From NCBI GenBank assembly GCA_033439255.1, contig CM065889.1, forward strand, positions 1,922,001 through 1,986,000: DNA of 64,000 nt, in the 5' to 3' direction. The notes below the pieces were generated by a model. That model did not search any database, was not told the origin of the DNA, and saw nothing but the letters and a program-made list of their open reading frames with translations. Both the position numbers and the translations under genes were made by a program. Shown here in pieces: positions 13,923 to 41,619 of this stretch (its first letter is position 1; each line of letters starts with the position of its first letter). This stretch comes from Hericium rajendrae (lineage: Eukaryota; Basidiomycota; Agaricomycetes; Russulales; Hericiaceae).

Positions 13923-14123
13923 CATCAGGAAATGAGGAATTCTCTGACTAGTCTGACTGTCTGATTCTTGTCTGAGATGTCTAGACCTCTGACTCACATA
14001 TCAATAAATTAGTGTATAAATCATTTTTGTAAAATCAGAAGAATATTAGACACAATCAGATCTGTCAGATTCTTAAAAATCTGTTAGATGAAGGTAATTC
14101 TGTCAGATGTTCAATAAGATTTA

Positions 14124-14860
14124 GACATTTGCTACTTTTCAGACAAAGTTAGGTAGGTCTCTATTATCCAGATACTTTCAGATACATCAGAGTTTTATAC
14201 TTTGATCAGATGAAAAGAATCTTATTAAACATTGAATAAAAGTCAGACATTTGCTACTTTTCAGATAGAGTTAGGTAGGTCTCTATCGTCCAGATACTTT
14301 CAGATATATCAGAGTTTCATACTTTGATCAGATGAAGAGAATCTTATTAGACATTGAATAAAAGTCAGATATTTGCTACTTTTCAGATAGAGTTAGGTAG
14401 GTCTCTATCGTCCAGATACTTTCAGATATATCAGAGTCTTATACTTTGATCAGATGAAGAGGATCTTATTAGACCATTGAATAAAAGTCAGATATTTGCT
14501 ACTTTTCAGATAGAGTTAGGTAGGTCTCTATTGTCCAGACACTTTCAGATATATCAGAGTCTTAAACTTTGATCAGATGAAGAGAATCTTATTAGACATT
14601 GAATAAAAGTCAGACATTTGTTACTTTTCAGATAGAGTCAGGTAGGTCTCTATTGTCCAGACACTTTCAGATATATCAGACTTTTAAACTTTTATCAGAT
14701 GTCGATGATTATATTAGACATTGAATAAAAGTTAGACAATTGCTGCTTTTCAGATAAAGTCAGATAGATTTTTATTGTTCAGATCCTTCTAGACACTTTA
14801 AATATAAGTTTATTTATCAGATATTATTAATTTTATCAGATACTCACTATTTTTTAGATA
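14124..14860. repeat. 122-bp tandem repeat, six copies
   Basis: Copies begin (GACATTTGCTAC or close variants) at about 14124, 14246, 14368, 14491, 14613 and 14735, so the period is 122-123 bp. Each carries GTTAGGTAGGTCTCTAT and a CAGATACTTTCAGA-like segment; the last copy is more diverged and the repeats fade by about 14960. Being 0.2 kb inside the left end of Element 1, they may be subterminal transposase-binding repeats. Confidence 0.85.
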
Positions 14861-17605
14861 AATTCAGATAGGTCTCTATTATTAAATACTTTTTAGACAA
14901 TTCAGATATTTGGATTGTTTCAGATGTCATTGATTACCTGAGACTTTAGATCAAAGGTCAGAAAATATATCTATAATAGACACAATTAGACAACTCCTTA
15001 TTATCAGATACTTTTAGATGCTTTAGAGTTTGGTATATACACCAGATATTATTACTAATTATAAGCTTTGATATAAAGACTTACCTGTCAATACTATCAT
15101 CTATTTAACTAGTAGTACTAAAGAAATTAGAGTACTAATAGTAGTATATTCAGGTCAGAATGCTATTTCATTGGCATGATGATCAGAAAACTTGTTTACA
15201 TAATAAGTATAGAAGGAATCTAAGGAATAAGTATGTTCAAACTCAGCAGGAAGAAACTCTTCTCCAAAAACAGGCATCAAATGAGCTCCTCGCAAAATAC
15301 TATCAACATGAATTACTGAACGAATATTGTTGCCATCTTCATCAACTTCTCGCTCTACAACCCACATGCCAGTATCAGGATCTGGCTCATCTTCAATAGG
15401 AATAAACCACTCTACATAGGCACATGGATAGGTGACTTTGTGATAGTCAAAGAAAAAAAACATCAAGACTCGTCCAATAAAAAGTCCTTGCATTCCTGGC
15501 AGATCTATACCACTTTCAACAAAGATGCAGTCTCGACGTGCAGATCCATATCGCCACTCTGGTGTAGAACGAATGCGATGACGATGCATATTTGTAAGGC
15601 CTGATAGATCACTAGGAGAATAATATACAGCAATAGCAGAGTGAAAGACATCAACATAGTATAGAGCTCGAGGAAGTTTAGACTCTTCTACAATTGTATA
15701 TGAATGATCAGAATGAAGTTGATCATATAAAAATCGTTGAATCATCTCAGATAGCTCAGGATAACCAAGATGATTTTCAAGTCTATGAAGTTCTCGTGGA
15801 TATTTAGGTGCTTTTTTTGTGGCTAAAGTTACACTTGCCATATATTCTGGCACATTATGTGCTGGTCCTCCATCTATATGATGCTTTGTAGCCCTCTGTT
15901 TATCTTCTTTATTCTCATCTTCAGATTCATCTTCAAATTTATCTTCAGATTCATCTTCATCTTCAGAGTCTAAGTTAAAATCAGAATCTGAGTCTGAGTC
16001 TGATGTAGACATCCAATCAGTTGAATCATTGATATCAACAATATCTAAAGGCAAATCAAGCATGCCATGAGCAATAAAGTCATTTTTAGCTGCAGCAAGT
16101 TTATCAAGCCTTTGATTTGTGAGCAACATTTGGCCAAGTGCATTAAATCGGCTAGAGCATTGCCATGGCTCCTTTACAGCTTTGATGTGTTTGGCCTCAG
16201 TTATAGATGTGCAAAGTCCATTTGACACACCAAATAGTCGAATAAGTTCAACATAATACATCAGAGCATGCTGTTTTGGCAGAGAAAATTCTTTGCGAAC
16301 TTCAACATCCTTAAAGATGACTCGTTCTTTATGAAATGTTTTTAGTGCTACTTCCATAGCATTTAATGTAGTCTCATCAATAACAGACCTTCGTGCAAGA
16401 TAGCAGAACTCCATAAATGCAGCAAGAGCTCAGACCATCTGATCTGGAACATGTCCTTGAATGGCAGGTAAAAACACTTTCATTAAAGCTTTAGAGTCAT
16501 CACCAGTCCACTGCTGAAAATTACATCCATCAGGGAATCGATGCAACTCTGGAAATGAAGGTGCAGCAGCAATTCTCCTATCAATGTCTGCCATGATTGT
16601 AGCAGCATGACTTGGTCCATGTTCTTTGATCAGATAATCTTCAACCCAAGCCACTAAATGATCTTTAAAAACACCCTTGATCACTTGATGCAAAAGATCA
16701 AATACAATAAGCTCATGAATATCAGCCCGAGGAAAATAATATGTGAGTGGCTAAAAAAAATCAGAATTAGAACAAGTTGAATCTTTATATTCATTCATAG
16801 AACTCACCATAATATCAGGAACTATGCCATAGTCATCCCATAGTATTCCTTTCTTAGTACCTTTATTTATTAGAGATTCTGTATGTGTATGACTTCGAGT
16901 CCCTCCACCACCATCTAAATCATTTAGTAAAGCTAAGCATTTTGGACACCAAGTTGAAACAACACATGATATCAACACTTGTTCTGGATAATCTCCAATA
17001 TAAGGTCCAAGACCATAAATTGCATGACGAAGATGTCCATCAGGACAGCGAACAACCTCTGGGGTAGTCATGCTAGGATGCAAATGCTCAAGGATTGTGC
17101 GCAAAGATTGTTGTATCAAATGCCTACAAAATTTACGAAAAGCTGCATTATTTTGATATTGTCTATCTGTTTGTCCTAGAGATAAGAACCCTAAGATGCT
17201 CACAGCATTTCGATGAGCCCGACGAACATTATTATGCACATTTCCAGGTGATATATATAGTGGCCAAAATTCACTATGTCCTGTAGCAACAGAAGCAACA
17301 GTCTTATCACTGCCTAAGATTACTGGCACAAACATAGCTCCTTTATTTGTTGGATCTTCAGCCACAATTGTGTCAGCCTGTTTCCATGACCAATCTCCAG
17401 TCATAAAGTCTGTCCACTGCCGTTCACCATTTTTCTTAAAGTCTTGCCTTGGAGCACTTGGTGGAAGAGGGCCGATGCTTCGCACGGCAATACGATTCCT
17501 TTTTCATTGTTAGTTATATTTAGAAACAGTGCATAAATGATGTAAAGTCTCACTTGTCAGATTAATTATAAATCTCTATAAAATCTATAGCTACCTCAAG
17601 GTCAA

Positions 17606-20506
17606 CATCTGAGAAATATGTTACTGATATATAACACTATATTAGCTACATAGCTTTTCTAGGTCCATAGCTGTCCTCTTTTATACATAGCAGTCAAGTA
17701 AACAATGCAAAGCTATCATAGCTTGTCATAGCTGTCATAGCATAGGGCATAAGCTATCATAGCTGTCATAGTTATTCTAGTATAAGATAACTATAGAAGC
17801 TATATTAACTATATAATATATCTCTATCATTATATTATATCTAGCTAGTAAGATTTCTATCTACTCTATATTACTTCTATCAAATATGCTAAAATAGCAT
17901 ATAAAATAAATATATTATAGATTCAATAGTCTGATGTCTTACAGTCACAAACATCGAAAATTGGATAAATTATATTACTCAAACAATTTCATTACAAAAC
18001 ATTACTATAGCTACAGAGACTACTACAGAACTATAGAAGGTAACAAACTTACAATGACTACAAAAAGCAAAAGATACAAATAAGAAAAGACATGAGTATT
18101 AGAAGATAACAAAGATAATATATGAAGACTTACCAGATTAACAAAAAAGTAAAAATCTACAAGACAATTTGAAGACATCAGTATAAGAAACAATCAAGCT
18201 TATCTAGTAGGACTACATGGTAGTGTAATAAGTATGAAGACATTAGTATAAGTTATAAGATAATTAAGAATAACAGCGTACCTTTAACAACGAAGAGAAC
18301 AATGATTAATAAAATGAGCAAACGACAACGACGAGTGAGCAAATGATGATGATGAGTGAGCAAACGATGACAAGTGAGCAAATGATGACAACAAATGTGT
18401 TGACGTGGCAAGGGATGGTGGGGGTTAAAGAGCAAGAGGTAAAGCGCATCGTGCCAGCCTTATATAGGAATCCCAGACGGAATCGGAATTTGTGGTTGCT
18501 GGGTGCTTGCCGAGTGTTGTGGCAGAGACTGAATGCCAGACTTTACTACATTGATGCTGCTGCTCACAGATTCACAGTTCAGTAGATACACAGTGTTCTC
18601 ATACATTCTAATTAAATGTATAATCTATCACTGTCCCTTTTTTCGTTGAATTTATACAAGTTTATTTGATTTGCTGAGGCTCGAGCAACAAAGCTTTGCT
18701 CATTCAGTGGCTGAAGCACCGAGTTTAACATGTCGAGACTTCACTCCTTTTTACCAGTCTCCCTTCCCCTCCTTCGTGTTTCCTCCTCCAGCCTCCTTCC
18801 TTCCATTTCTTTCATTCTCTATTGGCTTTCAATACGGCTGGGATGGTTTTTTTAGCAGATACTTAGAGGGCCTTAGGTGAGTAAAAAAAAAAGCCTCTTA
18901 TCATTTTTTCGTACTAATCAAGAGAGTGTCAATCATTTTTCGAGCGACACTCTCGATATCTTTTATTCTGTTGATCCCACATCCTCGCGCTACCATCCTA
19001 CGATCCTGCTGCCTTTTTTGCACTCTCATCACCCCTTCCTTGGCCTGTCTACGCCACATCCACGCCCTGCACACAGCTCGTACACCCCATGCCTGACTCC
19101 AACAGGCTGCGACCCCTGCGCATGCCTCCGACCACCATCTCCTTCCACGTGCACCAGCATGCACAAGGCTACAGCATGCGTGCATGTGTGTACCATGTGA
19201 CATCATCTGCACGACGTCAACAACATGTGCACACAGGCCACGTCATCGCCCATGCCCCACGTCCGTGCATGTGCATGCACCATAGTCCCGTTGCCATGGC
19301 AATGGGACTCGGACGTCATTCATGCCTATTGGCCACGACCCCACATGCTCGCCTCAATCCCTGCAAGGCCTCATGCTCATGTTCAACACCGTGCACGCTT
19401 GCAATGTCCTGTCCATGCACTCAAGCCCCCACACCCACTCACAACACCCTGCACCTGCTCACAACGCCTCGGACATGCATGCCATGCCTGGTTGCATGTA
19501 TGCTCCTGCACCTGCTCAACTCAACATGCCCTGCGTGTGTGCACATCGATCTGCACAGGTGCACAACAATCACACATGCGTGATGTGCCATACAGTGCCT
19601 CTTCGTGCATGCAGAATGTTCTGCAGGCCCGCTTCAGGCCTCCTGCACATGCTCGACACCTGCGCGTGCCCGACATCCCCCGCACGTGTCCAGCTCCACC
19701 TCCACATGTGCACAGATGCCAGTGCATGGCGGCACTGCAAGACCCCATCCCACAACAATGCATGCACGACACCCAGCATTCACACTCAATGCCACTTGCC
19801 TACAACGCCCTGCATGCGCGCATGCTCCCGTGTGCTCGCTCAACACCCCGCACCCTCCAGATGCTCTGTGTACATGCGCAACATCCCACATGCATGTACA
19901 CAACCTGCATGCATGCACGGCAGCCCTGACCCCATTTGTGGGCATGGCCACCCGCATGCAGCTACACATGGTCCAGCTTGCCATGCATAGACCATGTATG
20001 TTGTGTGCGGCCCACGCCTACCTCTGTGCTCTCTGTGCTGGCATTCGTGCATGCCGCACCACCTTTTGTATGCACATGCTGTCTTTTGTGTGCCTGCGCT
20101 GTCTTTGCACCTGTGCCTGCACCCTTCACAGTGACTTGCATGCCCTCCGCATCCTGTGCCCTATGCAGTAGCTCGACTAGCTTATATATGTATGGTAGTA
20201 GATTTATTACAATTTATTATGATAAATTCTGACTTGTAATATCTGGTGCTTATCTGACTTGTGGTAGTAATCATAGGCATCATAGTAGCCATAGTACACC
20301 TTGTTAATCATGATAGCCCTATGTATATCAGACTACAAGCGATGGAGGCTATGATAACCCTATGAATGTCACACTGTCTGCTATATAGGCTATGATAGCT
20401 CTCATAGCTCTACATAGCTGGATAAGCAAACTTCATAGCTCTGATAGCTCAATGATAGCACCTATAATGTAACCTGCAGCTATGTCAAATTTAAATTTCT
20501 CAGATG
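17606..20506. mobile_element. 2.9-kb CATCTGAG element nested in 157-bp repeats
   Basis: It starts CATCTGAGAAATATG and ends with the complement of CATCTGAGAAAT. AA flanks both sides (17604-17605 and 20507-20508). Removing it rejoins TACCTCAAGGTC with AAGATCTT, exactly the sequence of the neighbouring 157-bp repeat unit, which supports the boundaries. Both subterminal zones carry CTATCATAG/TAGCTATG-type tracts, like the ends of Element 3, of which it may be a non-autonomous relative. The centre holds a hairpin (18922-18954) and a C-rich block (about 18960-20165). Open frames in the block are compositional. Confidence 0.75.
18922..20165. repeat. Hairpin plus C-rich degenerate repeat block
   Basis: GAGAGTGTC (18922-18930) pairs with GACACTCTC (18946-18954), followed by GATATC. 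Then about 1.2 kb is strongly C-rich, with recurring CATGC, CACCTGC and TGCACATG words and a GTTGCCATGGCAA palindrome near 19290. Long open frames in several phases on both strands are typical of skewed low-complexity DNA, not genes. Similar blocks occur in 8292-9814 and 26122-28841. Confidence 0.6.
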
Positions 20507-22215
20507 AAGATCTTGAAAGGAAGATCTCAGTTTCGAGTTTTGATTTTTGAGTTCTGGGCAGATTGGGGTCTATGTAGCATGTCTGGAATGTGATTAATCA
20601 GTACATTCCAGCACATTTTAGAACAATTAAATCGGTGGGGAACTGCCAGACTTACCTTAAGGTCAAGATCTTGGGGGGGAGATCTCAGTTTTGAGTTTTG
20701 ATTTTTGAGTTCTGGATGGCATGGAGTCTATGTAGCATATCTGGAAAGCGATTAATCAGTACATTTCAATGCAATTTAGAACAATTAAATCGGTGAAGAA
20801 CTGCCAAACTTACCTCAAGGTCAAAATCTTGGGGGAGATCTCAGTTTCGAGTTTTGATTTTCGAGTTCTGGATGGTTTGGGGGCTATGTAGCATGGCTGG
20901 AAAGAGATTAATCAGTAGAGTTGAACGCATTTTAGAACGAGAGAATTGGTGAAGAATTGAAGGACTTACCTCAAGGTCAAGATCTTGAGGGGGTAATCTC
21001 AATTTCGAGTCTTGATTTTCGAGTTCTGGATGGTTTGGGGGCTATGTAGCATGGCTGGAAAGCGATTAATCAGTAGAGTTGAACACATTTTAGAACAAGA
21101 GAATTGGCAGAGAATTGATGGACTTACCTCAAGATCATTAGAATAATGATAATTGGTTGATTTTCAACTAGGCAGATAGGCTAGCATAGCTCAGAAGGCC
21201 TCATCTGGAAGCAGCTATCAATATCATTTTGATAAGCTTCAATATACCTTAGTTGGTATCAGATTTAGAGACCTATAAGTAAATTAGTCTGCCAGCTCAG
21301 CAAGTTAGATACATACAAGACGACCAAGGTGAGCCGCCGGGTCAAGTACCTCCTGGTTCCAAACCATCAACCACTCAGCGGATGACTTGGAGATACCCGT
21401 CGAGCTTTGCAGCCAACATGACAAGCATGCAGGATGTAAAGCTCATGAGAAAGCAAGACTTTACTGCTGGTGCTTCAAAACTGAAATTTTGATTATATAA
21501 TCAGTCTTCAAAATCATAGATTTCTAGGCATTTCTGTACTTATAATATACTATAAGAGTAGACATTGTACTAATGCTAATTGCTCATTGATTATATTATT
21601 CTTAGTATTAAAAAATATTAAAAAAGTCTGGCATGAACTGGAATTGAACTTACAAACTCAAGAGAACTCACACTTCACCACCGAGTTTTGATTATGTAAT
21701 CATCACATGATCACCACCATGGTACGGCCGTACCATGGTGAAGTGCTCATGTGATCACAACCATGGTACAGCTGTACCATGATGAAGTGCTTCACATTCT
21801 ATGAGTTCTGCATGGATCAAAATGCAAAAAATATGGTTCAAAAGCTATAAATGAGTAGTATTCGATCCACTTGAGAACGAGTGAATTGGTGGAGAATTGA
21901 TTGAGATAACTAAGAATCAAGCATACTAGGAGGAAAAATACAGAAGTACTTCGTGTTCTACGAGTTCTGCACAGATCAAAATGCATAAAATATGGCTAGA
22001 AAGCAATGAATGAGTAAATTCTGATACATCTAAGAATGAGTGAATCAGTCAAGAACTGACTGAGCTAGCTGAGGATCAAGCATACTAGGGGAAAAAATAC
22101 AGGAATGCTTTGCATTCTGCAAGATCTGCATGGATCAAGATGCATAATATATGGTTAGAAAGCGATAAATGAGTAGATTCTGGTGCATTTGAGAATGTGT
22201 GAATTGGTCAAGAAC
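20507..22215. repeat. About 157-bp tandem repeats, two arrays
   Basis: In the first array GATCTT-type landmarks fall at about 20509, 20667, 20825 and 20981, a period of 156-158 bp, with shared phrases GTTTTGATTTTTGAGTTCTGG and GCGATTAATCAGTA. A related second array of about three copies spans 21795-22215 (GTTCTGCATGGATCAAAATGC, CAAGCATACTAGG). Between them lies AT-rich sequence with a degraded tRNA-like segment. Confidence 0.8.
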
Positions 22216-22244
22216 TGACCAAGTTACAGTAAACAAAGTGTAAA

Positions 22245-22345
22245 AGAAAAAGTCTGGCCAGAGCTGGAATTGAACCTGCAAACTCGTTAGATTGAAGATG
22301 TGTGATTATATAAGCCAACTGCCTAATGGGCATAGTCATCGTTTT
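22245..22345 (-). other. Degraded tRNA-like segment
   Basis: On the minus strand GGTTCAATTCC resembles a B box, preceded by CACATCTTCAATCT and an A-box-like GCAGTTGGC. A comparable minus-strand segment near 60120-60185 has GGTTCGATTCT after CACATCTTAAAG, closest by eye to tRNA-Lys(CTT). A third weaker match is near 21635. None folds convincingly as a functional tRNA; a tRNA-derived element is one reading. Confidence 0.3.
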
Positions 22346-23810
22346 GGTGTCGTTTTCACTATGAAAAGGCAGTATAGAGTAAATGATTCTAAGGAATCGT
22401 AATAATCAAATTCTCCAGCAAAGTCAGGATTTTTGAGCTAGTTATGCAGAACTGTGTGTGGATTTCGATACCAGACTTCAAATTCTTTGGACATCCATGG
22501 AGGTGGTTTTTTTTAGGTATCTTGCCTTTATATTTTATTGAAAAACATAGCCATTCAGCATCTCCATGTTCAATTGAGTCAAGTACTGCATGAAGGTCAT
22601 CTTTATTTGCATATGGACAAGCTTTAGTGGTCTTGGCCCACAGTCCCATAAGACGATTGAAATTTTTTTTTGAAGCTGGCATCTCTCGAAACAGTAAATC
22701 TGCAGTCTCAAACTCAACTCGGTTTCGAAATGAAGACCAATCATTTGAATCAGGAATATCCTTTGGATGTGGAGCTACACCATCATCAAGGTAATTGCCA
22801 GCATTATCACATGGTCTTCCATTAAGATCTGGATGCATCATATTTTTCATGCCAGGCTTAGCAGCAACATTATTCATATCATCATCTTCAAGTTGCTCAT
22901 AATATGGATCATCATAAAATATATCTGGCACTTCTGGCAATGATGAGCGAGACAATGGCTGAGGTGCAGGATGAGGTTCAACAGATGTAAGTTCACGAAA
23001 GTTTAACCCAGGATGCATAGCATTAATATGCTGTGACAAGCCTCGTGGTGTTACAAAGCCTTGTCAACAATTAGCATTCACTGCATGTGGACATAGATAT
23101 GTACGAGGTTGATATGGCCTGCGACGAGGAGGTGCCATCTTTAGATTTTTTTTTCCAAAAGATATGCTCAGATTTCAATATCAGATGTCAATAGTGCAAG
23201 ATATCAACGAGTGCACAAGTATATGAGGTCAACAATCAGCAAGTCACAATCTGTGTTTAGGCAGTATTGAGCTGTGCCACAAGGCCTCCAATCAAGTTGT
23301 CAAAATATCCAGTCCAAGTTGTGCCACAAGGTCTGCAGTCGTGCCTGCAAGTTGCTCACAAGGTATCAAGATGTACCACAAAGTATCAAGTTGTGCAGCA
23401 GAGAACAAAGCAAAGCAACACTGCACAATATCTGAGTTAATGCAAGGAGGTGTATGATATGTTGAGGCACAGTGAGGTTGGTCAAAGCAGATGAGGATCA
23501 AAGTGGATAAGGTTGTCGAAGGTCTCAATGCCAGCAAACAAACAGATGAACCCGAAACAGGCAAGATTGAGATGCGAACGTGAGGGATCAGCTCGAAGGC
23601 CAAGGCCAGAGTATGTGGGCGAGAGGCGCAGACTTATAACGTGCATGATTTGTAACACAGAAAACCAAATCTAAGAACTAGAGTTAGCACAGTAAAAATC
23701 AGGTCGAGAAAACCATAAGAAGACATGCGACAGTGGAAAAAAAAAAGATTCGGCCAAAAAGAGCCTGTAGGACGGACATTTCGTGCCGTACAAGTAACCA
23801 CCAAGGCGCT

Positions 23811-24130
23811 GTGGGGCATGAAGCATGGATGTTTCATGCCCTACAGCAACCATCGAGTCAGAACAATGAGTACAGAGTGCTGTCGGGCATGAAACATCTG
23901 CATTTTGTACCCTATAGCAACTCCACACTCCAAACATCGAGAATTAGGTGCTGTCGGGCACGAAACGCAGACGTTTCGTACCCACAGCATCTGCAATTTT
24001 GAAAGATTGAGTACAAGGTGCTGTGGGGCACGAAATGCAGATGTTTCGTGCCCTACAACATCTGCAGGGTTGAAATATCGAGCACAGGGGTACTGTGGAG
24101 CACGAAACATGGACATTTCGTACCCTACAG
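23811..24130. repeat. About 71-bp tandem repeat with GGGCACGAAA hairpins
   Basis: Five units start near 23811, 23882, 23953, 24023 and 24095. Each holds an inverted repeat with arms close to GGGCACGAAA / TTTCGTGCCC and a 6-9 nt loop, then a variable CATCGAG-containing stretch. Within pairs, changes in one arm are sometimes matched in the other (GGGCATGAA with TTTCATGCCC in the first unit). The 70-72 bp period is not a multiple of three, so this is not coding. Confidence 0.85.
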
Positions 24131-24163
24131 CATCCATACTATTCAAACATCGAACATAAGGTG

Positions 24164-24744: not shown

Positions 24745-24970
24745 TGATGTGGGGCACGAAATTGTCCCACAGCTCTTGCAGTCAAAATATAATATAGCAT
24801 AAACTTACCACCTTGAGAGCCTTCAGAAGGACCGCAATTAATGAGTCTGAAGACAAAGATGTAAGCACAGCATGAAATGGGGGGTACAGGATTAGCCCAG
24901 TAGATAGATAAGATACGCAGGCTCTGGAGGTGCCTTGGGTGAGGCTGAGCCGAGAAGAGCATACGCGCAC

Positions 24971-30331: not shown

Positions 30332-32206
30332 ATGGCCGACATACCTCATTGGAAAACACAACCCCGCAAAGGTGGCAAATTCGCACCGAAAAGCGCCATT
30401 GCCTCGAGCGTTGGAACACCTGAGTCCCTTTCACCTCTAACTACCCCGAGTTCAATGCTCAGCTCATTACCATCGCGCCCATTCGATTCCCCTCAGAGCG
30501 CTAGGCGCGATGCTGACCGCGACAACGAAAGCGACTCGATGCCCGGATCCATGCCCGATGCGCCGATGTTTGGCGATCGGTCCTCACAGGCCGGGCAGCC
30601 TCGCGACTTCCTCGTGTACCCCAAAGTTGACAGCGAGCCGGACAGTGACTCAGAGTCTGTGCAGGACGTCAAGCCAGCCCCATCCAACGTCAAATCAGAG
30701 CGCCCCGACGTAAAACCACCACATGTCGATCTCACATATATCGGCCCTGCTAAACAGCCACCACCCCTTCGTCCAGCATCCCCGAATCGCTTGCGCCTTC
30801 ATCGCGTGCCGTCCCTAAACAGCCTCAACAAGCCCAAGCAGAACCCGCTCGTGTCCTTCAATAGCACCTTCGCCACCTCACTCCCCCTTCTGTCCGTCTC
30901 TGCACCCGCCGCTGCCCCTACCTCCGCGTTTACCTCCGCCACTAAACCATCACCCCAGCCACTGTTCGCACCGCCCACCGCCACTAAGACACAGAAGAAG
31001 AAAGCCCCCATGTCGAACCAGCCCATTCAACGGTTTCGCGGCGATGGCAAGGACGGCGAGGATGCCCAGGATTTCCTGCGTTATTTTCACCGGGAAATGC
31101 GCATCGGAGACGTCACTGATGAGAAGGAAAAGATGCGATGTATGAGGGACTATATCGCGTCCGGCTCGAGGGCCAACAGGTGGTATAAAGGACTCACCAC
31201 TGCGGACACGGCATCTTGGCAGACGTTCGAGGCTGCGTTCACCGCGGAATGGCCGGAGATTGAGGAGTCGCTGCGCACTCCGCAAGAGGTCCAGCGGGAG
31301 CTGCTTGACACGAGGTTGAGGGAGAGTGAGTTAGGAGAGAAGACGAACGTGGCCGGGAAGGAGCTGTGGACGCACGTTGCGTGGGCGGAGAAGGTCTTGG
31401 CTTTGGCGAAGGAGGCGGGTATGGCGGCATCCGCCACGTATGTCTGGAATGTGCGCGAGTACTTGCCGGATATCCTGAAGGATAAAGTTCCGAGCAACTG
31501 CGCAGACTGGACGGCGTTCACTACCGCCGTCAAGGCCGTCGACATCGACTACATCAGGGACAAGGTGGCCAAGTTACGTCGCGAGAACGCGCTGCTCGAA
31601 GACCTCAACCGACGTATGGCAGCGTTGGAGGTTCGTCGACCGGCAGTTGCTAGTGGTCGCAGCGCTCCTGTAGGCGGCGGAAATGTCGCGAGCCCGACCA
31701 CCTCATACAGCAAACCGGCAGCGCCGACCGCGGGCGCACGTCCACAGTTCACTCCACGTCCACCCGCCACTTTGGAACAGCGCGCGGCACTCCAGAGCCG
31801 TCTGCAGAGCATGCCGCACCACCCCAACACGGAAGCCGGGCGCCAGGCATATCGCGCACAGGTAGACCAATGGTTCCAGAAGTACGGCGCGGGGACTCGC
31901 GTGTCTGAAGAAACCCCCTTCCCCCTGCGTCCCGGCAGCGAGCCCATCTGCTCTGGAGAGTGTTTCAAGTGCGGCAAGATGGGCCACATCAAACCCAACT
32001 GCCAGGCGCCGCGGGAGATCTTGCTACACCCGAAGGAGACAGCTTGGCGGCAGATTTGCAGTGGGGTCTTGCGTGGCGGAAGTAGGCCAGCGGACGCGGC
32101 GGTGAATTTCGTAGCGGAGGTGTACGGAGATGAAAGTCTGTGGGCGCAGTCGGAGGATAGCAGTCTGACCGAGGATCAGGGAAAAGGGGTGGGGTCGTCC
32201 GTGTAA
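30332..32206 (+). CDS. gag: Gypsy-1 Gag
   Basis: Structural capsid/nucleocapsid polyprotein, about 624 aa from the ATG at 30332 (the open frame runs further up but without a convincing start). Ser/Pro-rich N-terminus, then a retrotransposon-gag type helical domain (RFRGDGKDGEDAQDFLRYF and following), and a CCHC zinc knuckle CFKCGKMGHIKPNC at about residue 545. The stop TAA at 32204-32206 shares its last A with the ATG of pol. Confidence 0.9.
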   Translation: MADIPHWKTQPRKGGKFAPKSAIASSVGTPESLSPLTTPSSMLSSLPSRPFDSPQSARRDADRDNESDSMPGSMPDAPMFGDRSSQAGQPRDFLVYPKVDSEPDSDSESVQDVKPAPSNVKSERPDVKPPHVDLTYIGPAKQPPPLRPASPNRLRLHRVPSLNSLNKPKQNPLVSFNSTFATSLPLLSVSAPAAAPTSAFTSATKPSPQPLFAPPTATKTQKKKAPMSNQPIQRFRGDGKDGEDAQDFLRYFHREMRIGDVTDEKEKMRCMRDYIASGSRANRWYKGLTTADTASWQTFEAAFTAEWPEIEESLRTPQEVQRELLDTRLRESELGEKTNVAGKELWTHVAWAEKVLALAKEAGMAASATYVWNVREYLPDILKDKVPSNCADWTAFTTAVKAVDIDYIRDKVAKLRRENALLEDLNRRMAALEVRRPAVASGRSAPVGGGNVASPTTSYSKPAAPTAGARPQFTPRPPATLEQRAALQSRLQSMPHHPNTEAGRQAYRAQVDQWFQKYGAGTRVSEETPFPLRPGSEPICSGECFKCGKMGHIKPNCQAPREILLHPKETAWRQICSGVLRGGSRPADAAVNFVAEVYGDESLWAQSEDSSLTEDQGKGVGSSV

Positions 32207-35200
32207 TGGGGAACGGGACGACCCGACAACTTCCAATCCCAGGCCAAGATTTAACAGTCCTCGCGAGTAAGGAGGCACCTCGCGAGGACGAAGACTGCAG
32301 CGCCGCGAATACGATCACCTGTAACGTTCTAGATTCCATTGTTCCGTTGTCGTGCAATGAGCAGGCTATGGTTGACTTGTATTTGGTGGAGCAGTCGTCA
32401 TCCACGTTGCGCGGCACCGTGGCGACGCCATTCATGCACGAGGTCGTAATTCATGGGCCTTGCGGGGAAAAGGTCCGCGTCAGAAGTCTGTTCGACGACG
32501 GCGCTATGGTGGGCGCCATGTGCGCGTCTGTATACGAGCAGATAAAGCATCGGCTGGGCACGTCGAAGCCGTCCGCGAAGATCTTACGAATGGCAAATGG
32601 GGCGCAAGTACCTTCGCAGGCAACATGGACTGGCCGGTTAGAGCTGGCTGGAGTTCTAGTGGAGGGTGAATTTGAGGTGTTTGATAGTAATGGCAGTTGG
32701 GGGTTCCTTTTCGGGAAACCGCTCTTACAGGCGTTCAAGGCGGTCCACGATTACAAGCGTGATGTCGTTCAAGTCCACGGTCTCAACGGCACTGCTCAAT
32801 TGCACAACCAGCTCAAGTTGCCGTACTACGTGCAGGCCGTCGCGAGATCGGGCGATCGAATCACGCTCGATAGGAAACAGCACAAGGCATTGGTAGGGGG
32901 AGTAAAATCCCCCGCAAGGCAAGTTCGCGCTAGACGTCGAATTGCAGTAAACTACGCTGATCTTCTTCCTCCTTTGCCTCACGAGGATTCTATCGTATCG
33001 CCATCTGGAAACGACCGGGCAGAGGGTACACTGGTAGTAGAGGCGAGCGACATTGAGTTGTTGGCGACTGAGGATCCAAAGACGGGCCCACAGGTTGAGG
33101 CGCAGGATGGGCAGGACGAAAAACTGGAGATGGGACGAGTCGAGGATGAGGCCGCAGCTGCGAAAGAGGAGCTCGATGAGACTACGCGCAGAAATGCAAT
33201 GGGGAGCAGTAACAAGCTCCCCTCGAGGGAAGTTCCACCCACCTCCGCGAATGACATGCCCGTACCCACTAACGACAACCCTACTCCCGTTCTCGCAGTG
33301 GACGCCGAGCAGAACGTGTTCACCCGCATGACCGACCCTTTCATGCCGGCTCGTGTTGCTAAAGTGCAACAGCTCGTCGGTATTGGGCCTGATCTCACAC
33401 CGGAACAGCGTCAACAGGCCCTCGACCTCATTGCGGAGTTTGCGGATTGCTTCGCTCTCTCGCTCAGTGAGGTCAAGCATGCCGAAGGTGCCTACATCAA
33501 ATTCGACATAGCACCCGACATGTCGTTCAATCTCAAACCACGCCAGAAACCGCTGACGCCGCCGCAACGGAGCTATCTCGACAAGAAAATCGATGAAATG
33601 CTCGGCGCCAGCATAATCGAGGCGGTCCACCCGTCCCAGGTCAAGGCTGTCTCGCCCACGACCCTGGCACAAAAAGCCCATGATGGCGGTGGCCTCACGT
33701 TGGACGAATTGCAGCACAAAGTCAACGATGAGTGTATCGAAGCCGGTTTACCGCCGATGTTTGACTTACCTCCACGACCAGAACACCGTAACAGGTCGTC
33801 TGCGGCGCCGCCGGAGCAGAAATGGCGTGTTTGTCAGAACTTCAACGAGGTGAATAGGGCAACGCAAGTGGCGCCGATGCCTCAGGGGGACATCCGCGCG
33901 AAGCAACAGCGACTGAGCGGACATAAATACATATCCGTTTTCGACTTCGCAGCGGGATTCAACGCGGTAGTCGTGGATGTCGACTCGCGACCCTATCTGG
34001 CTTTCTATGTTGAAGGCCGGGGTTATTTCTGGTACAAACGAATGCCATTCGGACTTACTGGTGCACCCTCGGCATTCGCGTACGTCACAGCCATGCATCT
34101 CCACGATCTCATAGCTGATGAAGTTATGGAACTATTTGTGGATGACGGAGGTGCTGCTGCAAACTCGTTCGAGGAGATGTTGGCGAAGCTACGCCGCATC
34201 TTTATGCGGATTCGGGAACGCAACCTCTCTCTCTCGGCGAGCAAATCTTCGTTTTTTATGTCCGAGGCCGTTTTCGCGGGCGCGCGCGTCGGGCCACAAG
34301 GCGTGATGCCGGACTTAACGAAGCTTACGGCTGTTGTTGACTGGCCGCAGCCTCCGGATGCGTTGAACTTGGTGTCTTTCTTGGGACTTACAGGGCATTT
34401 TCGGGATCTGGTCAGGAACTATGCGAAACTAGAAGGCCCATTGAGGGATCTACTGGCCAAGGTCGAGCTACCGGATCCGTGCTCGAAGTCCACGTACCGG
34501 CGTGCCATGCAAGCCTTCCGACTTGCCGATTACTGGACAAGCGACCACACGGCCGCATTCTTGCACCTTAAAGCTGCCCTCACCAGCGAACCGGTGTTAC
34601 GAGGCCCGCGTTGGGACGGCACACCATTCATAGTCACAACAGACGGATGCCAGGAAGGGTTCGCTGGCGCCTTGACGCAGCGCATGACAACAGAACTACC
34701 TAACGGCAAGATGGTTAGCAAATTACATCCGCTCGCTTTCGCGTCGAAGCGCACCTCGGCCGCGGAACGCAATTATAAACCATTCCTACTGGAGTTTGCA
34801 GCCCTCAAATTCGCCCTGGACAAGTTTGCTGATGTCATATGGGGATACCCCGTTATAGTGGAAACGGACTGTCAAGCACTGCGCGATGTCCTGCTTAGTG
34901 ACAAGCTGAACGCAATCCATGCACGCTGGCGCGACGGCATATTGGCTTACAATATTGTTGATGTCCGCCACGTTCCGGGGAAGCTAAACGTGGTCGCGGA
35001 TGGCCTTAGTCGTCAAGGCGAAGGGTTGCCACGCGCCGAAGGCGATGGTAGTGATTGGACGGTTAACGAAGACTGGGAGGCATCTACGGGTCTCACATAC
35101 GATCTTATGGTGGTTATGGCAGACGATCCGTCGATCATTGCATTGCGCGAACGGTTCGCCGGTGAGCCTCTCTTCGCAGATGTCATCAATGCATTATTGG

Positions 35201-36714
35201 CCCAGGACTCGCCAGAGACCAGCGTTCGGGACAAGCGTCGCGCGCGTTATCGGTCCTCCCAGTACTCCATCGAGGACGGAAAGCTCTGGCGCATCAAAGG
35301 CGGTACCCCCGTACGAGCACGCACGCGGTACGAATGTGTTACCCAGGCTGAAGCCAAGGTCCTCGCCTATGCTGAACATGTCTCCGGCAGACACTGGGGA
35401 CGCGATAGCGTGAAGATCGCGCTCATGGATCGCATTTGGAGCCCTAAGCTTGATGCCTCCATTCTGGCAGCAGTGCGGGAATGCTCCCACTGTAAAAACT
35501 TCGGCACGCCACACATTAATTCCCTACTCGAGCCCATCACCCGCCGCCAGCCATTCGAATTGGTCGTAGGCGATTACTTGTCAATGCCGCCTGGTACGGG
35601 CAAGTTAGACCATATAGGCTTATTCCTAGATGTGTTTTCGCAGCATCTCTGGGTCAAGGCGATCAAGGGCTCTGGATCGGGAAAGTCGACGGTGGATGTC
35701 CTGCGCAGGATCTTCACGGAGTACATGCCGGCGCAGACGTTCATGTCGGACGGCGGCTCGCATTTCGATTGTAAAGAGGTGCGCGACTTCTGCGCGGAGT
35801 GGGGCTGCCGAACGCAAGTGGTTGCCACCTACTCACCTTGGATAAACGGACTCGTTGAAGGCACGAACAAGATCCTCCTTCATGTTCTTGCTCGACTTAC
35901 CTCCCCAGGGCTTGGCGAGGAGGAGTATGAGAAGATGAACTGGGATGACTTGCCGAAGAAATGGCCGAACCATTTGGATCATGCCGTCAAGATCCTGAAT
36001 AACCGCATCCTTCCCGCTCTCAAGTTCTCACCCAAGGAACTTTTATTAGGCCTTGCGGTCAACTCCGTTCCTACACCAATCACGACGGCTGCATCTGAAG
36101 TCCTACCGTCCGATGCGGACATTCACATGGCCTATGCTGCTCAGCAGCGCCTCGACGGGTATGAGGCCATTGTGACACACGCGCTCCGTCGTAAGACCGC
36201 CTTTGATAGGCGGCTGCGGAAGCGCTTTCCAGGTGAAGTCGTCTTCTCTATTGGTCAACTAGTGCAGTTTTATCGTAGCGACTTCGATAATTCTTTTAGC
36301 ACCCTTCGCAAACTGGCTCCCCGTTGGTCCGTACCATGTCGCATTATTGAACGGCTTCGCAATTCGTACCGGCTGGAGTCTTTGGAAGGGAAGTCAATGA
36401 AAGGCCTTTACAGTGCACGTCGTCTACGTGCATTCATCCCTCGGCCAGGTTCGAAGTTGGCAATGCAGCAGGAGGAGTGGGTTCAAGCACAAGCAGCCGT
36501 GGTGGAGTCAGCAGAGGAGCAGGAGTTGGAGCCTGATCGGTTTGTTGAGGAAGGCATGTGGGGTGATCGAGTGGGTGGCTTGCATGGTTCGAGTGGTTCT
36601 GGCGACGCGGACGTCGCTTTTTTCGAGGGGGGCACCTGGAATAGGGAGTCGGGAGGGCAGGAGGAGCTGGAGGAGTCGGGGATTGCCGAGGAGTCGGGGA
36701 TGACCGATGCTTAG
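32206..36714 (+). CDS. pol: Gypsy-1 Pol
   Basis: 1,502 aa in one open frame. An aspartic protease-like site reads SLFDDGA near residue 96 (DDG rather than the usual DSG/DTG). Reverse transcriptase has FDFAAGFNAV, MPFGLTGAPSAF and the catalytic FVDD near residue 643. RNase H follows (VTTDGCQEGFAGAL, near 811). Integrase has an HHCC region (GRHWGRDS...CSHCKNFG) and the D-D-E triad in VVGDYLSM, MSDGGSHFD and GLVEGTNK. The order RT-RNaseH-IN marks Ty3/gypsy. The last 26 codons lie in the 3' LTR. The frame is intact; the TAATG overlap with gag implies reinitiation. Confidence 0.92.
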   Translation: MGNGTTRQLPIPGQDLTVLASKEAPREDEDCSAANTITCNVLDSIVPLSCNEQAMVDLYLVEQSSSTLRGTVATPFMHEVVIHGPCGEKVRVRSLFDDGAMVGAMCASVYEQIKHRLGTSKPSAKILRMANGAQVPSQATWTGRLELAGVLVEGEFEVFDSNGSWGFLFGKPLLQAFKAVHDYKRDVVQVHGLNGTAQLHNQLKLPYYVQAVARSGDRITLDRKQHKALVGGVKSPARQVRARRRIAVNYADLLPPLPHEDSIVSPSGNDRAEGTLVVEASDIELLATEDPKTGPQVEAQDGQDEKLEMGRVEDEAAAAKEELDETTRRNAMGSSNKLPSREVPPTSANDMPVPTNDNPTPVLAVDAEQNVFTRMTDPFMPARVAKVQQLVGIGPDLTPEQRQQALDLIAEFADCFALSLSEVKHAEGAYIKFDIAPDMSFNLKPRQKPLTPPQRSYLDKKIDEMLGASIIEAVHPSQVKAVSPTTLAQKAHDGGGLTLDELQHKVNDECIEAGLPPMFDLPPRPEHRNRSSAAPPEQKWRVCQNFNEVNRATQVAPMPQGDIRAKQQRLSGHKYISVFDFAAGFNAVVVDVDSRPYLAFYVEGRGYFWYKRMPFGLTGAPSAFAYVTAMHLHDLIADEVMELFVDDGGAAANSFEEMLAKLRRIFMRIRERNLSLSASKSSFFMSEAVFAGARVGPQGVMPDLTKLTAVVDWPQPPDALNLVSFLGLTGHFRDLVRNYAKLEGPLRDLLAKVELPDPCSKSTYRRAMQAFRLADYWTSDHTAAFLHLKAALTSEPVLRGPRWDGTPFIVTTDGCQEGFAGALTQRMTTELPNGKMVSKLHPLAFASKRTSAAERNYKPFLLEFAALKFALDKFADVIWGYPVIVETDCQALRDVLLSDKLNAIHARWRDGILAYNIVDVRHVPGKLNVVADGLSRQGEGLPRAEGDGSDWTVNEDWEASTGLTYDLMVVMADDPSIIALRERFAGEPLFADVINALLAQDSPETSVRDKRRARYRSSQYSIEDGKLWRIKGGTPVRARTRYECVTQAEAKVLAYAEHVSGRHWGRDSVKIALMDRIWSPKLDASILAAVRECSHCKNFGTPHINSLLEPITRRQPFELVVGDYLSMPPGTGKLDHIGLFLDVFSQHLWVKAIKGSGSGKSTVDVLRRIFTEYMPAQTFMSDGGSHFDCKEVRDFCAEWGCRTQVVATYSPWINGLVEGTNKILLHVLARLTSPGLGEEEYEKMNWDDLPKKWPNHLDHAVKILNNRILPALKFSPKELLLGLAVNSVPTPITTAASEVLPSDADIHMAYAAQQRLDGYEAIVTHALRRKTAFDRRLRKRFPGEVVFSIGQLVQFYRSDFDNSFSTLRKLAPRWSVPCRIIERLRNSYRLESLEGKSMKGLYSARRLRAFIPRPGSKLAMQQEEWVQAQAAVVESAEEQELEPDRFVEEGMWGDRVGGLHGSSGSGDADVAFFEGGTWNRESGGQEELEESGIAEESGMTDA

Positions 36715-36802
36715 TCAGCATAGTGTAGAGTTAGAGGCGTAGAGTTAGAAGGAATCATCATCATTGCTGCGAGGTAGCAGAGGCTGGCATTGGGCCCCTC
36801 CA
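36637..36802 (+). repeat. Gypsy-1 3' LTR
   Basis: Identical to the 5' LTR. The pol stop codon at 36712-36714 lies 78 bp inside it, so the LTR is partly coding. Confidence 0.92.
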
Positions 36803-37112
36803 CCGTAGGTGGAAAGTCCGGTGCAAGTCATCTACAAGATCTCAGCTTCATTGAAGCAAGCACACAGGGCTCCAAACGCTACCCTGATCCCTATCAAACC
36901 CCGTGTACAGCCCAAAGCTATGGTAAGTAATATCATATCCAATGCTTGTTTACCTGATAACACTGATAAATACACTTTGTAGGCAACTCCTGTGGTCTCT
37001 GCGGTAGATCAAGCAGAGCAAATGAAGACCGTAGTCAAGAAAGTGAGTAATATTTTTTTTTTTTTTTTTTTTTTGCAATGCATGTGTCTGATGTATGATT
37101 CACGATTAGCAG

Positions 37113-37799
37113 GGTGTTACAAGCGACGTCAAAGTCCCCGTCCAGGCTCCAAAGCAAGCAGAGGTGAGAGGAACATTTATTCTGTTTTGTAATACACGTG
37201 TGTATGTCGGTGGCCCCCAGTGCATGCAGCGGAGCAATGCTAAGTCACCGGAAGCTGTCCAGTTGGGTCTCGCCAAGGCCCAGCAGTCAGCTGAATGTGG
37301 CGGCATGAGCCTCCTGCTGTGTTGATGCATGGCATGAACATGCGTGGTGAGCAAGGGGTGTGCGCAGTGCTAACAGTATGCTTTTCAATTAGGGCAGTGT
37401 GACCGAGGAGGAAAGCGATATTGAACCTCCGGCCAAGGCTCCAATGCAAGTCGAGGTAAGTAACATTGTGATCCTTGTTCTATGGTATGTGCTAATAGGA
37501 CAATTCTCAATCAGGGTAGTGTCACAGAGGAAGAGAGTGATGTCGAACCCCTGGTACAGGCTACAAAGCAAACAGAGGTAAGTACTATCGTCATCTCTGT
37601 CTTATAATACATGCTAAGAGTACAATTCTTAATTAGGGCAGTGTGATGGAGGAGGAGAGCGATATGGAGCCCGAGATGGACATCAACGTCCAGCCATGCT
37701 TCAGAGCTCCTCGACTCTGGGGTGAAGCCGAGACCGATGAAGACGTCAAGAAAAGTAATGTGGAGATGGAGGCAAAGGCCCAAGGCAATGAAGTGTCAG
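37113..37799 (+). repeat. Four tandemly duplicated exons in gene A
   Basis: Exons 37113-37163, 37393-37455, 37515-37577 and the start of 37637-37799 are each preceded by a phase-0 intron ending in AG-GGY. They encode variants of GSVTEEESD-x-EP...Q-x-E (the first is shorter). The introns between them are also alike (GTAAGTA starts, CAATTMTYAATYAG ends). This is duplication of an exon-intron unit within the acidic low-complexity part of gene A. Confidence 0.75.
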
Positions 37800-39467
37800 G
37801 TGCGTAGTGCTTCATCACATTGTTTGCATACTCTGATCATAATGCAGATCTACCGGTTGTAAATCTCGAGTCAATTCAGCACGAATACCAGCTTTTCCGA
37901 GCTGAGAAGCGAGCCAATGGCAGTAATAGTGTAACGGAGTCAGATGACGAGTTCGAATTCCCAGGTACGCATGCTAATAATGTGCTATGTGCAGAGACTG
38001 ATCATATTGTAGTCAGAATATCTAATCTGCCCTCAACTCACAAGCTGTCTGCCTCGAAAACAGCCCTCCCATCTGACACAACATCTGCTTCAAAGGCTGC
38101 CATGCCATCCACTGCCAAGTCTATCCCCAAGACACCAGCTGCCAAGCGTGCAGTGCCAGTACACGTGCCTTCTACAGCCCCGCAGTGCTTGATGCTTGCT
38201 GCTTTCTCTTCGCATGCACCATCTTTGTCTTCAGGTACACCATCTTCATCTAAGACGAAGCATGCTCGTACACCTTCGTCATCATCTATGGTAAGTTCTT
38301 TTTGATTTTTTAATTCTCTACTGACTCTTTTCTTTAGCATCGTACTTCGTCAAACTCTACTGTATGTTTCTAACTTTTCAATATTTTTCTTTGTTTACTA
38401 ACCAGTGATCGTCAGTCAAGATCTGGTCACTCTCGCTCTACTAGTAAGAGCTTTACCAATGACAAGCTCCCTGTTCCTGCACGGAAGTATCGTGAGTTCT
38501 TCATTTTAATGTGGAAGGACTATATCGGCAACCATTCAGAGCCATGGATCATTGACGGTTTGGTTCCTTGCATGCAAGAGCTTTGGGATACATGCTTTCC
38601 TTCTGTTCCTCACATTTTCTCGTCAAGGAATGATGATATCTTTGGCGTAGTAAGCTTCTTTTCGTTTCTTCAAGAGCACTTACATATTTGTGCTTCAGAC
38701 TCGGCAGAGGACATATGACTGGTGAAGCCACTTTGCATCTGTTGCTGAGGCTGTTGTCAAGGAGGAGTGGACTCTATCTCTTCCAGGCTGTAGGAAGGTT
38801 GCAAAGCCTGATGAGACTGATGAAGACCTGAAGTATGAGTGGATGCACTTCAAACTAGGTCGGTTTGATGATCCAGCTGATCCTGAGGACCCTGGTGCTA
38901 TCCCTTTCATTTTTGGGGTGGTTACTTATGAAGAGGATCACTCATTGGTATGTTTTCTTCTACTGAATTTCTTAGGCTAAAATTTTGTCTTTGTAGACTC
39001 TCAGTAATATATTCAGGGGTCAGATGGTGATGAAGACTCTTGGCCAAGGTCATTTGTCTATTGTTGAGGCTCTTTCTGCTGAGTCTAGGCAGGATGGATG
39101 GCCTAAGACTGCTCTTTGTCTGTCTCTTGTTGCTGTGAGTATTTTTCTGATCTCTTTTGTAGAGGCTGACTTTGTGCAGGTAGAGCGAGCCTTGTGTCTG
39201 AATCTGCCAGAGGATGAGCATCCTGCCAATCTCAGGAAGCCTGATGATGATAACTTCTCTGCTGCTAACTGGGGCTCAGCTTCCATCCATTACATGAAGA
39301 TCATCAGTACTCTTTCTGACAAGAAGTGGAAGCTCATCATTGAGGCTGCTCAGGAGCATAGCAAAATTAGAGTTAATCATAATAATGGTTCTGCTAACTC
39401 TGTGCCTCAAGATCCTAGTGACAAGTGTCGTCTCAATCTTAGTAACTTCATGAGTGATGATGAATAG

Positions 39468-41619
39468 TTTGTCTCTCTTTTTGCTTTTTTATAGTGATCT
39501 GACTTCTATTTATCTTAAAATCATGTCTTCAATCTGATCTTCTTATAGTTTGTGATTATTATTTTTTATCTGGCTATTGCTCTGACTTGGCTCTAAATAG
39601 GATCTTTATCATCAAAGATTTCTCTAGTTTGTCTATTTTTGTTTCAATTTTTTATCTGATCTGACTTATAGATTGGTACTAGTATTCTCTTTTTTTCTAA
39701 CATAGCTGATTTTAATTTCTTTAATGATTTGATTTTTTACTGTTAATTTTCTCTCACCTATGGCCTATTGTTTTGGGTTTGTGCTGCATTGGGCGTTTAG
39801 TTGTTTACCTGCATAATTATAGAGTGCAGTGGTTCTGAGAATTTGGTGTAATTTTAAGTGTCTAATTGAGCTCTGAAATAATTTAAAGATTTTGATCTTG
39901 AGCTGGTATCTGTCTGATATAAATGAAATGAGACTAATTCTGACTAAATTTGCTCTGAAGTAGTACTAAATTATGTTTAGCTTGTCTGAATTACTGTCTT
40001 AAAATTGTCTGAAGTGTCTGATTAATCTAATCATATTTAAGACAAAGCTGATATGATGCTAGAATGAGATCTATATTATAGAGCTTTTCTGTTATTTAGA
40101 AAGATGTTCTTTTAGTAGTATCTAATCTTAGACAGAACTTGATCTTAGACAAAATCTAACTTCCAAATAAACTCTAACTTTAGATATCTTCTGATCTTCA
40201 GATAAGTTCTAAGTTTCAAATAAATTCTGCTTTCAGATAAACTCTGATGATTAGACAAACTCTAACATCTAGACAAACTCTGATATTTAAAATAATGTCT
40301 GACACCTAGATAAACTCTAACATTCAGACAAACTCTGATATTTAGGCAAACTCTGACATCTAGAAAAAGTCTGATTTCAGATACAAATAAGAGAAATATC
40401 AGAGAAACTCTGCAATTTAGAGAAATTCTAACTTTTAGACAAACTCTAAATTCAGATAAAATCTGACTTTAGATAATGTCTGACTTCAGATAATATCTGA
40501 GACCTAAGCTTTTATCTAGGAACTCAGACTTCAGTCTGAAATTAGACATTTTGTTCTGAAAGGGACTGGACGATAGGGACCTACCTAACTCATCTGACTG
40601 TCTGAATTGTCTGAATCAGATCAAATCAGATACAATTAGATACTAATCAGAAATTTCCAGGTTTACTGATGTAGAGCTATGTACTTATAAGAGGATCCTA
40701 TAAGTGCTATAGGTGTCCTATAGACAGCTACACTCACTATGATCATTATGATAAGCCAGCTAGAGATCAGAGTTGTCAAGTCAAAAAAATATTATATTAG
40801 AAGCTACAGCAGTACACATCAGGAACCCTTGGAACTTTCTGATGATCTGATTTTATCTGATTTTGTCTGATATCAGAAAATTTTCTGAAATCAGATACTC
40901 AGAACATCAGAAATAAATCTGAAAACAGAATTGATTTCTGATATCAGATGGACAATCTGTTGATCAGAACTTTTTCTGCTTTCAGACTTTTGTCTGAGAT
41001 CAGATCAGTCAGATTTGTATCAGATCAGAAAGTTTAATCAGATCAGAAATCTTAGTCAGATCAGAAATTTTAGTCAGATTAGAAGTAGCAGATCAGAAAT
41101 TCTAGTCAGGTCAGAAACCCTAGTCAGATCAGAAACTCTAGTTAGGTCAGAAACCCTAGTCAGGTTAGATTTTAAAATCAGATCAGAATATAAATTTAGA
41201 TCAGACTTTCAGATTAGGTCAAAATCACACCCAAAATACAAAATGCAGCTTAACATTATGCAGTAAGAGATATACAAAATTCAAAGATAGGCATAGTCAA
41301 ATCAAAAGGAAGCAAAGGGTAAGATCAGAAAGCATTAAAGATCTTTAGAAGTAAAGAGAAAAAAATACTTGAAGAAGACATTAAAAAGATCTAGAAGAAA
41401 AGTTAGAACTGAGTGGAGATCAAAATCAGGAGTATGATGAGTTGAACAATTCAGACACCAAGAGATATGAGAAAGAGATACTCTAAGAAGATATTAAAAG
41501 AACCTAAGAAAGAGAATCAGAACTGAGTAATGATCAAAATCAGAGATATAATAAGAAAACCCAAACATCAAGTCAAACATGCTCAATCACCAATCACCAA
41601 CCAATCCAATCAATCCAAT
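39468..41619. other. TCTGA-rich ends of Elements 1 and 2
   Basis: No gene. The stretch contains the right subterminal zone of Element 1 (to 40671), a 145 bp spacer of CTATAG-type sequence, and the left subterminal zone of Element 2 (from 40817), where TCAGATCAGAAA-type words repeat every 20-25 bp at about 41015-41160. The repetition resembles the subterminal repeats of CACTA-type transposons. Confidence 0.6.

Follow-up and report, generated by a model that had tools for sequence, protein, structure and literature searches.

Transposition of the plant CACTA element Spm/En requires both TNPA and TNPD, and TNPA binds the subterminal repeats (PMC2613891). Plavaka elements that carry TET/JBP (TET+) have been described from Agaricus bisporus and Gymnopus confluens only, and from Russulales only TET+ Kyakuja elements have been reported (PMC12730594). 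Here, we report that in a 64,000-nucleotide stretch of Hericium rajendrae DNA (the window; G000:C12:1922001-1986000, genome of 46.8 Mb in 19 contigs) and elsewhere in the same genome, Plavaka transposase genes are regularly accompanied by a second, divergent gene of either the YEWRS or the DUF6532 family, and that the two genes sit inside one pair of tips and integrated together. YEWRS is a name given from a motif in a first-pass annotation made from the sequence only, and we met no family so named. Plavaka, CATCA tips, and TET cargo were already known. The searched text of Kojima 2025 (PMC12730594) names no YEWRS or DUF6532 partner and no Plavaka accessory besides TET/JBP; Plavaka is also mentioned in PMC8955403, PMC9674265, and PMC8290104. 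DUF6532 appears, adjoining Plavaka, in a published additional-domain list of two Ganoderma species. No description of this second Plavaka gene was found in the papers searched. The founding Plavaka paper, Iyer et al. 2014, may include relevant gene neighbourhoods.

Element 1 holds a Plavaka gene and a YEWRS gene between one pair of tips

Element 1 runs between CATCAG..CTGATG tips (CATCAGGAAA from 13923 and TTTACTGATG to 40671) with TA on both flanks. The first-pass annotation had placed in it a Plavaka gene on the minus strand and YEWRS gene A on the plus strand, and this layout was borne out, with a PF18759 score of 258.3 bits against a cut-off of 26.3 bits. Its parts, in window coordinates, are as follows.

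13921..13922, no strand: TA target-site duplication, left flank of Element 1
13923..40671, no strand: Element 1, PlavakaB-type two-gene transposon with CATCAG..CTGATG tips and TA duplication
13923..14922, no strand: TCAGA array on the Plavaka side, 35 inward and 5 outward per kb, a 122-bp tandem repeat included
15155..23138, minus strand: Plavaka transposase gene (PF18759), with an insertion inside at about 17457-22401
38482..39467, plus strand: YEWRS gene A, exons of the conserved C-terminal domain, with a single in-frame stop within the YEWRS motif
39672..40671, no strand: TCAGA array on the YEWRS side, 23 inward and 11 outward per kb
40672..40673, no strand: TA target-site duplication, right flank of Element 1

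Relatives elsewhere in the genome, written E with a number, are about 11 kb long, and Element 1 is 26.7 kb including inserted DNA. E9, a relative on C13, matches it in four collinear blocks between window 13922 and 40642 (13922-15038, 15159-17456, 22402-23138, and 38237-40642), which occupy about 11 kb in E9; the second and third blocks, i.e., the transposase gene, are contiguous in E9 and E2. The middle of Element 1 (23139-38236; 4.3 kb in E9) has no match to E9, and the long frames within it at 30104-36714 read as a putative retroelement. Gene A, whose conserved exons lie at 38482-39383, has its stop within the YEWRS motif and is probably dead.

YEWRS and DUF6532 genes are paired with Plavaka across the genome

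Genome searches produced 132 matches to PF18759 (Plavaka), 18 to PF20149 (DUF6532), and 103 to the gene A domain (YEWRS), giving 81, 15, and 53 loci, respectively. The clustering used 109 of the 132 Plavaka rows and 99 of the 103 YEWRS rows, those omitted being neighbouring exons of kept loci, and all 18 DUF6532 rows. A divergent Plavaka locus lies within 12.5 kb of 42 of the 53 YEWRS loci and of 11 of the 15 DUF6532 loci. When loci were moved by 30-200 kb with random strand (2000 runs), the mean counts were 2.6 for YEWRS and 0.27 for DUF6532, with maxima of 10 and 3; random placement over whole contigs gave means of 1.2 and 0.23 and maxima of 6 and 3 (the lengths of contigs C1, C5, C6, and C14 were approximate in the shuffle control). 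Chance proximity to Plavaka was rejected on the basis of this shuffle. If there is any Plavaka locus within 12.5 kb, the nearest one is divergent for 40 of 46 YEWRS loci and for all 11 DUF6532 loci. Counted from the transposase side, 43 of the 81 Plavaka loci have a YEWRS partner, 11 have a DUF6532 partner, none has both, and 27 have neither.

Tips, target-site duplications, and empty sites

Ten YEWRS elements were intercompared, and both ends could be defined for eight, four with CATCAGTAAAC and CATCAGCAAAAGCC and four with CATCAGGAACCCTT. Matching two-base duplications flank E1 (TC), E2 (CA), E3 (CG), E4 (CA), and E8 (TA); counting Element 1 (TA), Element 3 of the window (CAA), and a DUF6532 element on C2 (TC), 8 of 11 elements have matching duplications of 2-3 bp.

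Both genes were found to be enclosed by the tips in three cases in which an uninterrupted target is available: E8, the C2 DUF6532 element, and Element 3, for which the target is the YEWRS gene as it stands intact in E3. The repeat that E8 entered has an empty copy on C9, with a single TA. The C2 element (C2:3857472-3869885; 12,414 bp) has CATCTGGAAAAAGTG tips and a TC duplication, and the frame that it interrupts reads like the reverse transcriptase of a long interspersed nuclear element. Relatives of this target cross the junction. One of them, C7:3087916-3088064, matches bases 2-150 of the query at 77%, and on C8 there are two shorter matches that also span the junction, at 80% and 74%. Two more 12.4-kb copies with CATCTGGAAAAAGTG tips, DUF6532, and Plavaka are located at C2:25000-37414 and C4:1119862-1132277. 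The proposal of the first-pass annotation that YEWRS and DUF6532 are, at least in part, transposon cargo or accessory genes is supported, in this one genome, by the enrichment and the empty sites together. When one mismatch to CATCTGGAAAAAGTG is allowed, pairs of about 3.5-4.1 kb with one CATCTGG and one CATCAGG tip are also seen, e.g., C9:1470233-1474308.

The tip patterns were also searched on their own. CATCAGGAACCCTT occurs 51 times forward and 51 times reverse, with none in either direction in the backward control. Seven long pairs were seen among the matches listed (100 of 102), two with a common right tip, leaving six distinct elements; five of these six contain exactly one YEWRS and one divergent Plavaka gene, and the remaining one, at C2:3275456, contains neither. 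The CATCAGTAAAC pattern is less specific (62 forward and 54 reverse; 7 and 7 in the backward control) and is present only at the YEWRS end of E1, E2, E7, and E8; two of its three long pairs among the matches listed (100 of 116) have neither gene and one has YEWRS only. The same two patterns define 43 short copies among the matches listed, about 200-250 bp long with one of 502 bp. Within 2.5 kb of YEWRS 3' ends, 20 tips on the correct strand (at 19 of the 53 loci) and 7 on the wrong strand were present among the matches listed. Two YEWRS elements at C12:966055-975712 and C12:987888-1000114 are about 99% identical in inverted orientation, and their flanks do not match as duplications, perhaps through recombination between the copies.

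Element 3 interrupts the YEWRS gene of Element 2

For the right part of the window, the first-pass annotation is corrected here: Element 3 lies within the YEWRS gene (gene E) of Element 2.

40817..64000, running beyond the window end, no strand: Element 2, YEWRS element with a CATCAGGAACCCTT tip at 40817
41623..42335, minus strand: YEWRS gene E, C-terminal exons
42348..61929, no strand: Element 3, two-gene Plavaka/DUF6532 transposon within gene E
42644..56784 (provisional upstream limit), minus strand: Element 3 Plavaka transposase gene, PF18759 259.9 bits and PF20722 25.1 bits
60384..61395, plus strand: Element 3 DUF6532 (PF20149) gene, 155.8 bits (cut-off 24 bits), profile 2-194 of 194, with introns, divergent from Plavaka
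61985..62146, minus strand: YEWRS gene E, exon on the upstream side of Element 3

Positions 1-1680 of E3, a relative on C9, correspond to window 40817-42348 and positions 1677-2744 to window 61930-62997. Because these matches run on across the insertion, it was the YEWRS gene of Element 2 that Element 3 entered; once joined, the flanks align with the uninterrupted YEWRS gene in E3 (91.3%, 1317 columns) with a gap-free junction, and the duplicated CAA is at 42345-42347 and 61930-61932. Gene E, a minus-strand YEWRS gene, does point its 3' end toward a CATCAGG terminus (the CATCAGGAACCCTT tip), as had been noticed at first. The divergent Plavaka partner of Element 2 is outside the window (C12:1988691, plus strand), and no right tip of Element 2 was found. 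Element 3 had been thought to repeat the plan of Element 1, which holds for the divergent pair of Plavaka and DUF6532 genes but not for the ends, i.e., its tips are CATCTGAGAAAA and TTTTCTCAGATG, not CATCAG, and its subterminal repeats differ. Elements 1 and 3 as one family are ruled out by their different tips, transposase clades, and repeats.

The Element 3 Plavaka gene is split by an insertion at about 44787-56505, with the N-terminal part of the domain at C12:1978509-1978784. This 11.7-kb insertion has 1.2-kb inverted repeats (97% complementary) and 300-base direct repeats at 45027 and 51703 and is perhaps a long terminal repeat element. By eye, the ends of the insertion at 17457-22401 in the Element 1 Plavaka gene are like those of an insertion at about 58785-60250 between Plavaka and DUF6532 in Element 3. 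The CATCTGAGAAAA pattern occurs 126 times forward and 122 times reverse (control 1 and 0), and many plus/minus pairs 2.6-2.9 kb apart are seen among the matches listed (100 of 248); these look like a high-copy non-autonomous family with the Element 3 tip.

Transposase clades, selection, and subterminal repeats

A tree built from 27 transposase domains groups the eight DUF6532-paired ones included (of 11) in one clade with support of 1.0, and outside it are 18 labelled YEWRS-paired and one unpaired; the YEWRS-paired label of L003 is to be read with the fact that its YEWRS gene is closer to another Plavaka. For the two closest pairs, the ratio of nonsynonymous to synonymous divergence (dN/dS) shows YEWRS to be under purifying selection, as is the transposase: it is 0.17 for YEWRS and 0.18 for the transposase in E8/E2, and 0.19 and 0.14 in E3/E5. 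The YEWRS copy L044 (C7), compared with L042 (C13), has TAG for a tryptophan codon in two places, and these TGG-to-TAG changes fit the C-to-T damage expected of silenced repeats.

The TCAGA arrays of Element 1 recur in its relatives. Eight YEWRS-type elements, several of which are near-identical copies, have 23-60 inward TCAGA in the first and in the last kb and 3-14 in the opposite direction, compared with an interior of 0.65-1.9 per kb per strand. Shuffles of three elements never gave a count above 6, and shuffling of the Plavaka-side array of Element 1 gave a mean of 1.0 and a maximum of 5.

Relation between the YEWRS and DUF6532 families

YEWRS proteins scored 18 and 14.8 bits against PF20149 (E 0.0029 and 0.026), below the cut-off, and membership is not claimed. 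DUF6532 is the top Pfam match for two YEWRS lineages; PF20149 did not match a third lineage or the Hericium relative P0002, whose gene model seems domain-incomplete. PF20149 also matched four of six alignment rows (A1), which are two close pairs and hence not four independent cases. Small hidden Markov models (HMMs) built from our own rows did not separate YEWRS against DUF6532 from shuffled sequences in either direction, and hhalign gave probabilities of 3.5% and 7.4%. By inspection, the window DUF6532 gene has three phase-0 introns in places collinear with those of WinA, E3, E8, and E10; the third is directly before V/M-E-R/C-A in all five, and the first was not found in E10. We rejected a sequence proof of homology, since HMM and hhalign comparisons fail, and kept the intron and Pfam likeness as suggestive. 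With sequence tests mixed, the two families may be one superfamily. It is conceivable, at somewhat below an even chance in our judgment, that they are one fast-evolving helper superfamily that was already with Plavaka before its two transposase lineages separated, has stayed with it, and has evolved together with the subterminal repeats particular to each lineage. If this is true, DUF6532 genes of mushrooms would mostly be transposon genes and not host genes, and transposase, TET dioxygenase, and DUF6532 would make up a three-gene self-mobilising, self-demethylating unit. Protein database searches returned one relative for the longer YEWRS profile (Hericium alpestre) and one for the window DUF6532 protein (Dentipellis sp.), both from Hericiaceae, Russulales.

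A proposed helper role and its alternatives

We consider it somewhat probable that these Plavaka are cut-and-paste two-gene elements whose second protein is a TNPA-like helper binding the subterminal repeats. In such elements, a single pair of inverted tips encloses the transposase gene and, divergent from it, an accessory gene, which is YEWRS for one transposase lineage and DUF6532 for the other. The accessory protein would bind the repeated subterminal motif, i.e., inward TCAGA in the YEWRS lineage and another motif in the DUF6532 lineage, would join the ends or make them accessible to the transposase, and might also regulate the element. The short copies that share these tips (about 200-250 bp) would be mobilised in trans. 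As between cargo and accessory, we infer that selection and the match of partner to clade lean to accessory.

Several observations weigh against this proposal. Among the Plavaka loci, 27 of 81 have no partner within 12.5 kb, although these include that of Element 1 (partner 21 kb off) and half of that of Element 3. Many copies are near-identical and some YEWRS loci have one Plavaka in common, so that the pairing counts are not all independent, and all element-wide evidence comes from one genome. E5, E6, and E7 (3 of the 11 elements) are without a matching duplication. In three more distant pairs, YEWRS dN/dS is 0.36, 0.48, and 0.42, compared with 0.20 for the transposase in one of them, E8/E9. 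For E3/E5, dS is 0.77 for YEWRS versus 0.19 for the transposase and dN is 0.149 versus 0.027; YEWRS changed more at synonymous and nonsynonymous sites alike. Part of the difference thus reflects unequal history of the halves and not selection, and each half may have undergone its own recombination or conversion. The tips of Element 3 and of the C2 DUF6532 element have no TCAGA array, and their own repeat is weak. Pfam recognised no DNA-binding domain in YEWRS or DUF6532, giving only sub-cutoff matches such as MCM_C, PDB sequence searches with the accessory proteins returned nothing, and the AlphaFold model of DUF6532 is poor (predicted local distance difference test 50.9; predicted template modelling score 0.29).

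The alternative that survives best, though we regard it as unlikely, is that the accessory protein acts outside the transposition reaction as an anti-silencing factor against host methylation, together with TET/JBP in DUF6532 elements. In its favour, 6 of the 11 DUF6532-Plavaka pairs have a match to PF12851 (TET/JBP; 46 matches in the genome) lying between the paired genes with the orientation of DUF6532, TET+ PlavakaB families are described in Kojima 2025 (PMC12730594), and the TGG-to-TAG changes in one YEWRS copy would fit silencing damage. However, none of the 46 matches falls between a YEWRS gene and its Plavaka, and the TCAGA arrays at the tips would require a partner that binds DNA. The six matches themselves are under the Pfam cut-off (27.5-30.2 versus 34.9 bits; E 6.9e-6 to 4.6e-5) and make up about three sequence classes by score, and because of this they are probably, though not certainly, TET; Element 3 has no PF12851 match. 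Elsewhere in the genome, 39 of the 46 matches are more than 15 kb from any Plavaka, and many of these have identical scores and probably belong to other transposons.

It is more doubtful still that YEWRS and DUF6532 are passenger genes, dispensable for movement. Some loci do stand alone: for 11 of the 53 YEWRS loci, the 12.5-kb range holds no divergent Plavaka, and 4 of the 15 DUF6532 loci (on C3, C6, C8, and C18) are 57-831 kb from the nearest Plavaka of any orientation. But the constant divergent layout, the tracking of transposase clade by partner type, and purifying selection are unlike sporadic cargo. Some of the unpaired loci, moreover, look like element remnants, because five of the 11 YEWRS loci have a tip within 2.5 kb of the 3' end (among the matches listed), another is gene A, and on the 3' side of the C18 DUF6532 locus there is a tip at 0.8 kb. 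That both are ordinary host families, brought near Plavaka by common build-up in repeat-rich regions, has almost no probability in our view, given that Plavaka loci are indeed grouped in few regions but loci moved by 30-200 kb give 2.6 and 0.27 pairs, not 42 and 11, and matched tips and empty sites enclose both genes.

Comparison with known systems

Plavaka elements with a TNPA-like helper would give a likely function class to DUF6532, a Pfam family, and to the unnamed YEWRS family, both otherwise counted as host genes, and would point to transposon helper proteins among the fungal gene families that lack an explanation. Annotation of complete elements is aided by the tips, the subterminal arrays, and the partner gene.

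The YEWRS type shares with PlavakaB (PMC12730594) the Plavaka transposase, CATCA..TGATG tips (found here in Element 1 and E1-E8), and 2-3 bp duplications, and some PlavakaB families have TET/JBP, as some of the DUF6532 pairs here probably do. The DUF6532 type has CATCTG..CAGATG tips (CATCTGAGAAAA and CATCTGGAAAAAGTG) in place of these, and we keep it as Plavaka without filing it as PlavakaB. Harbinger/Nuwa also has the two-gene plan, with a DNA-binding Myb/SANT gene beside the transposase, but belongs to another transposase lineage (PMC12730594); no Myb/SANT match was among the Pfam hits of YEWRS or DUF6532. Plant CACTA Spm/En, with TNPA and TNPD, is like the elements here in having a transposase plus a second protein, subterminal repeats, a short duplication, and non-autonomous copies (PMC2613891). 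It differs in its CACTA tips, 3-bp duplication, and alternatively spliced transcripts, whereas the elements here have CATCAG or CATCTG ends in place of CAC..GTG, mostly 2-bp duplications, and two divergent genes. The parallel with TNPA is one of analogy only; it suggests that fungal Plavaka, as plant CACTA, may run on two proteins.

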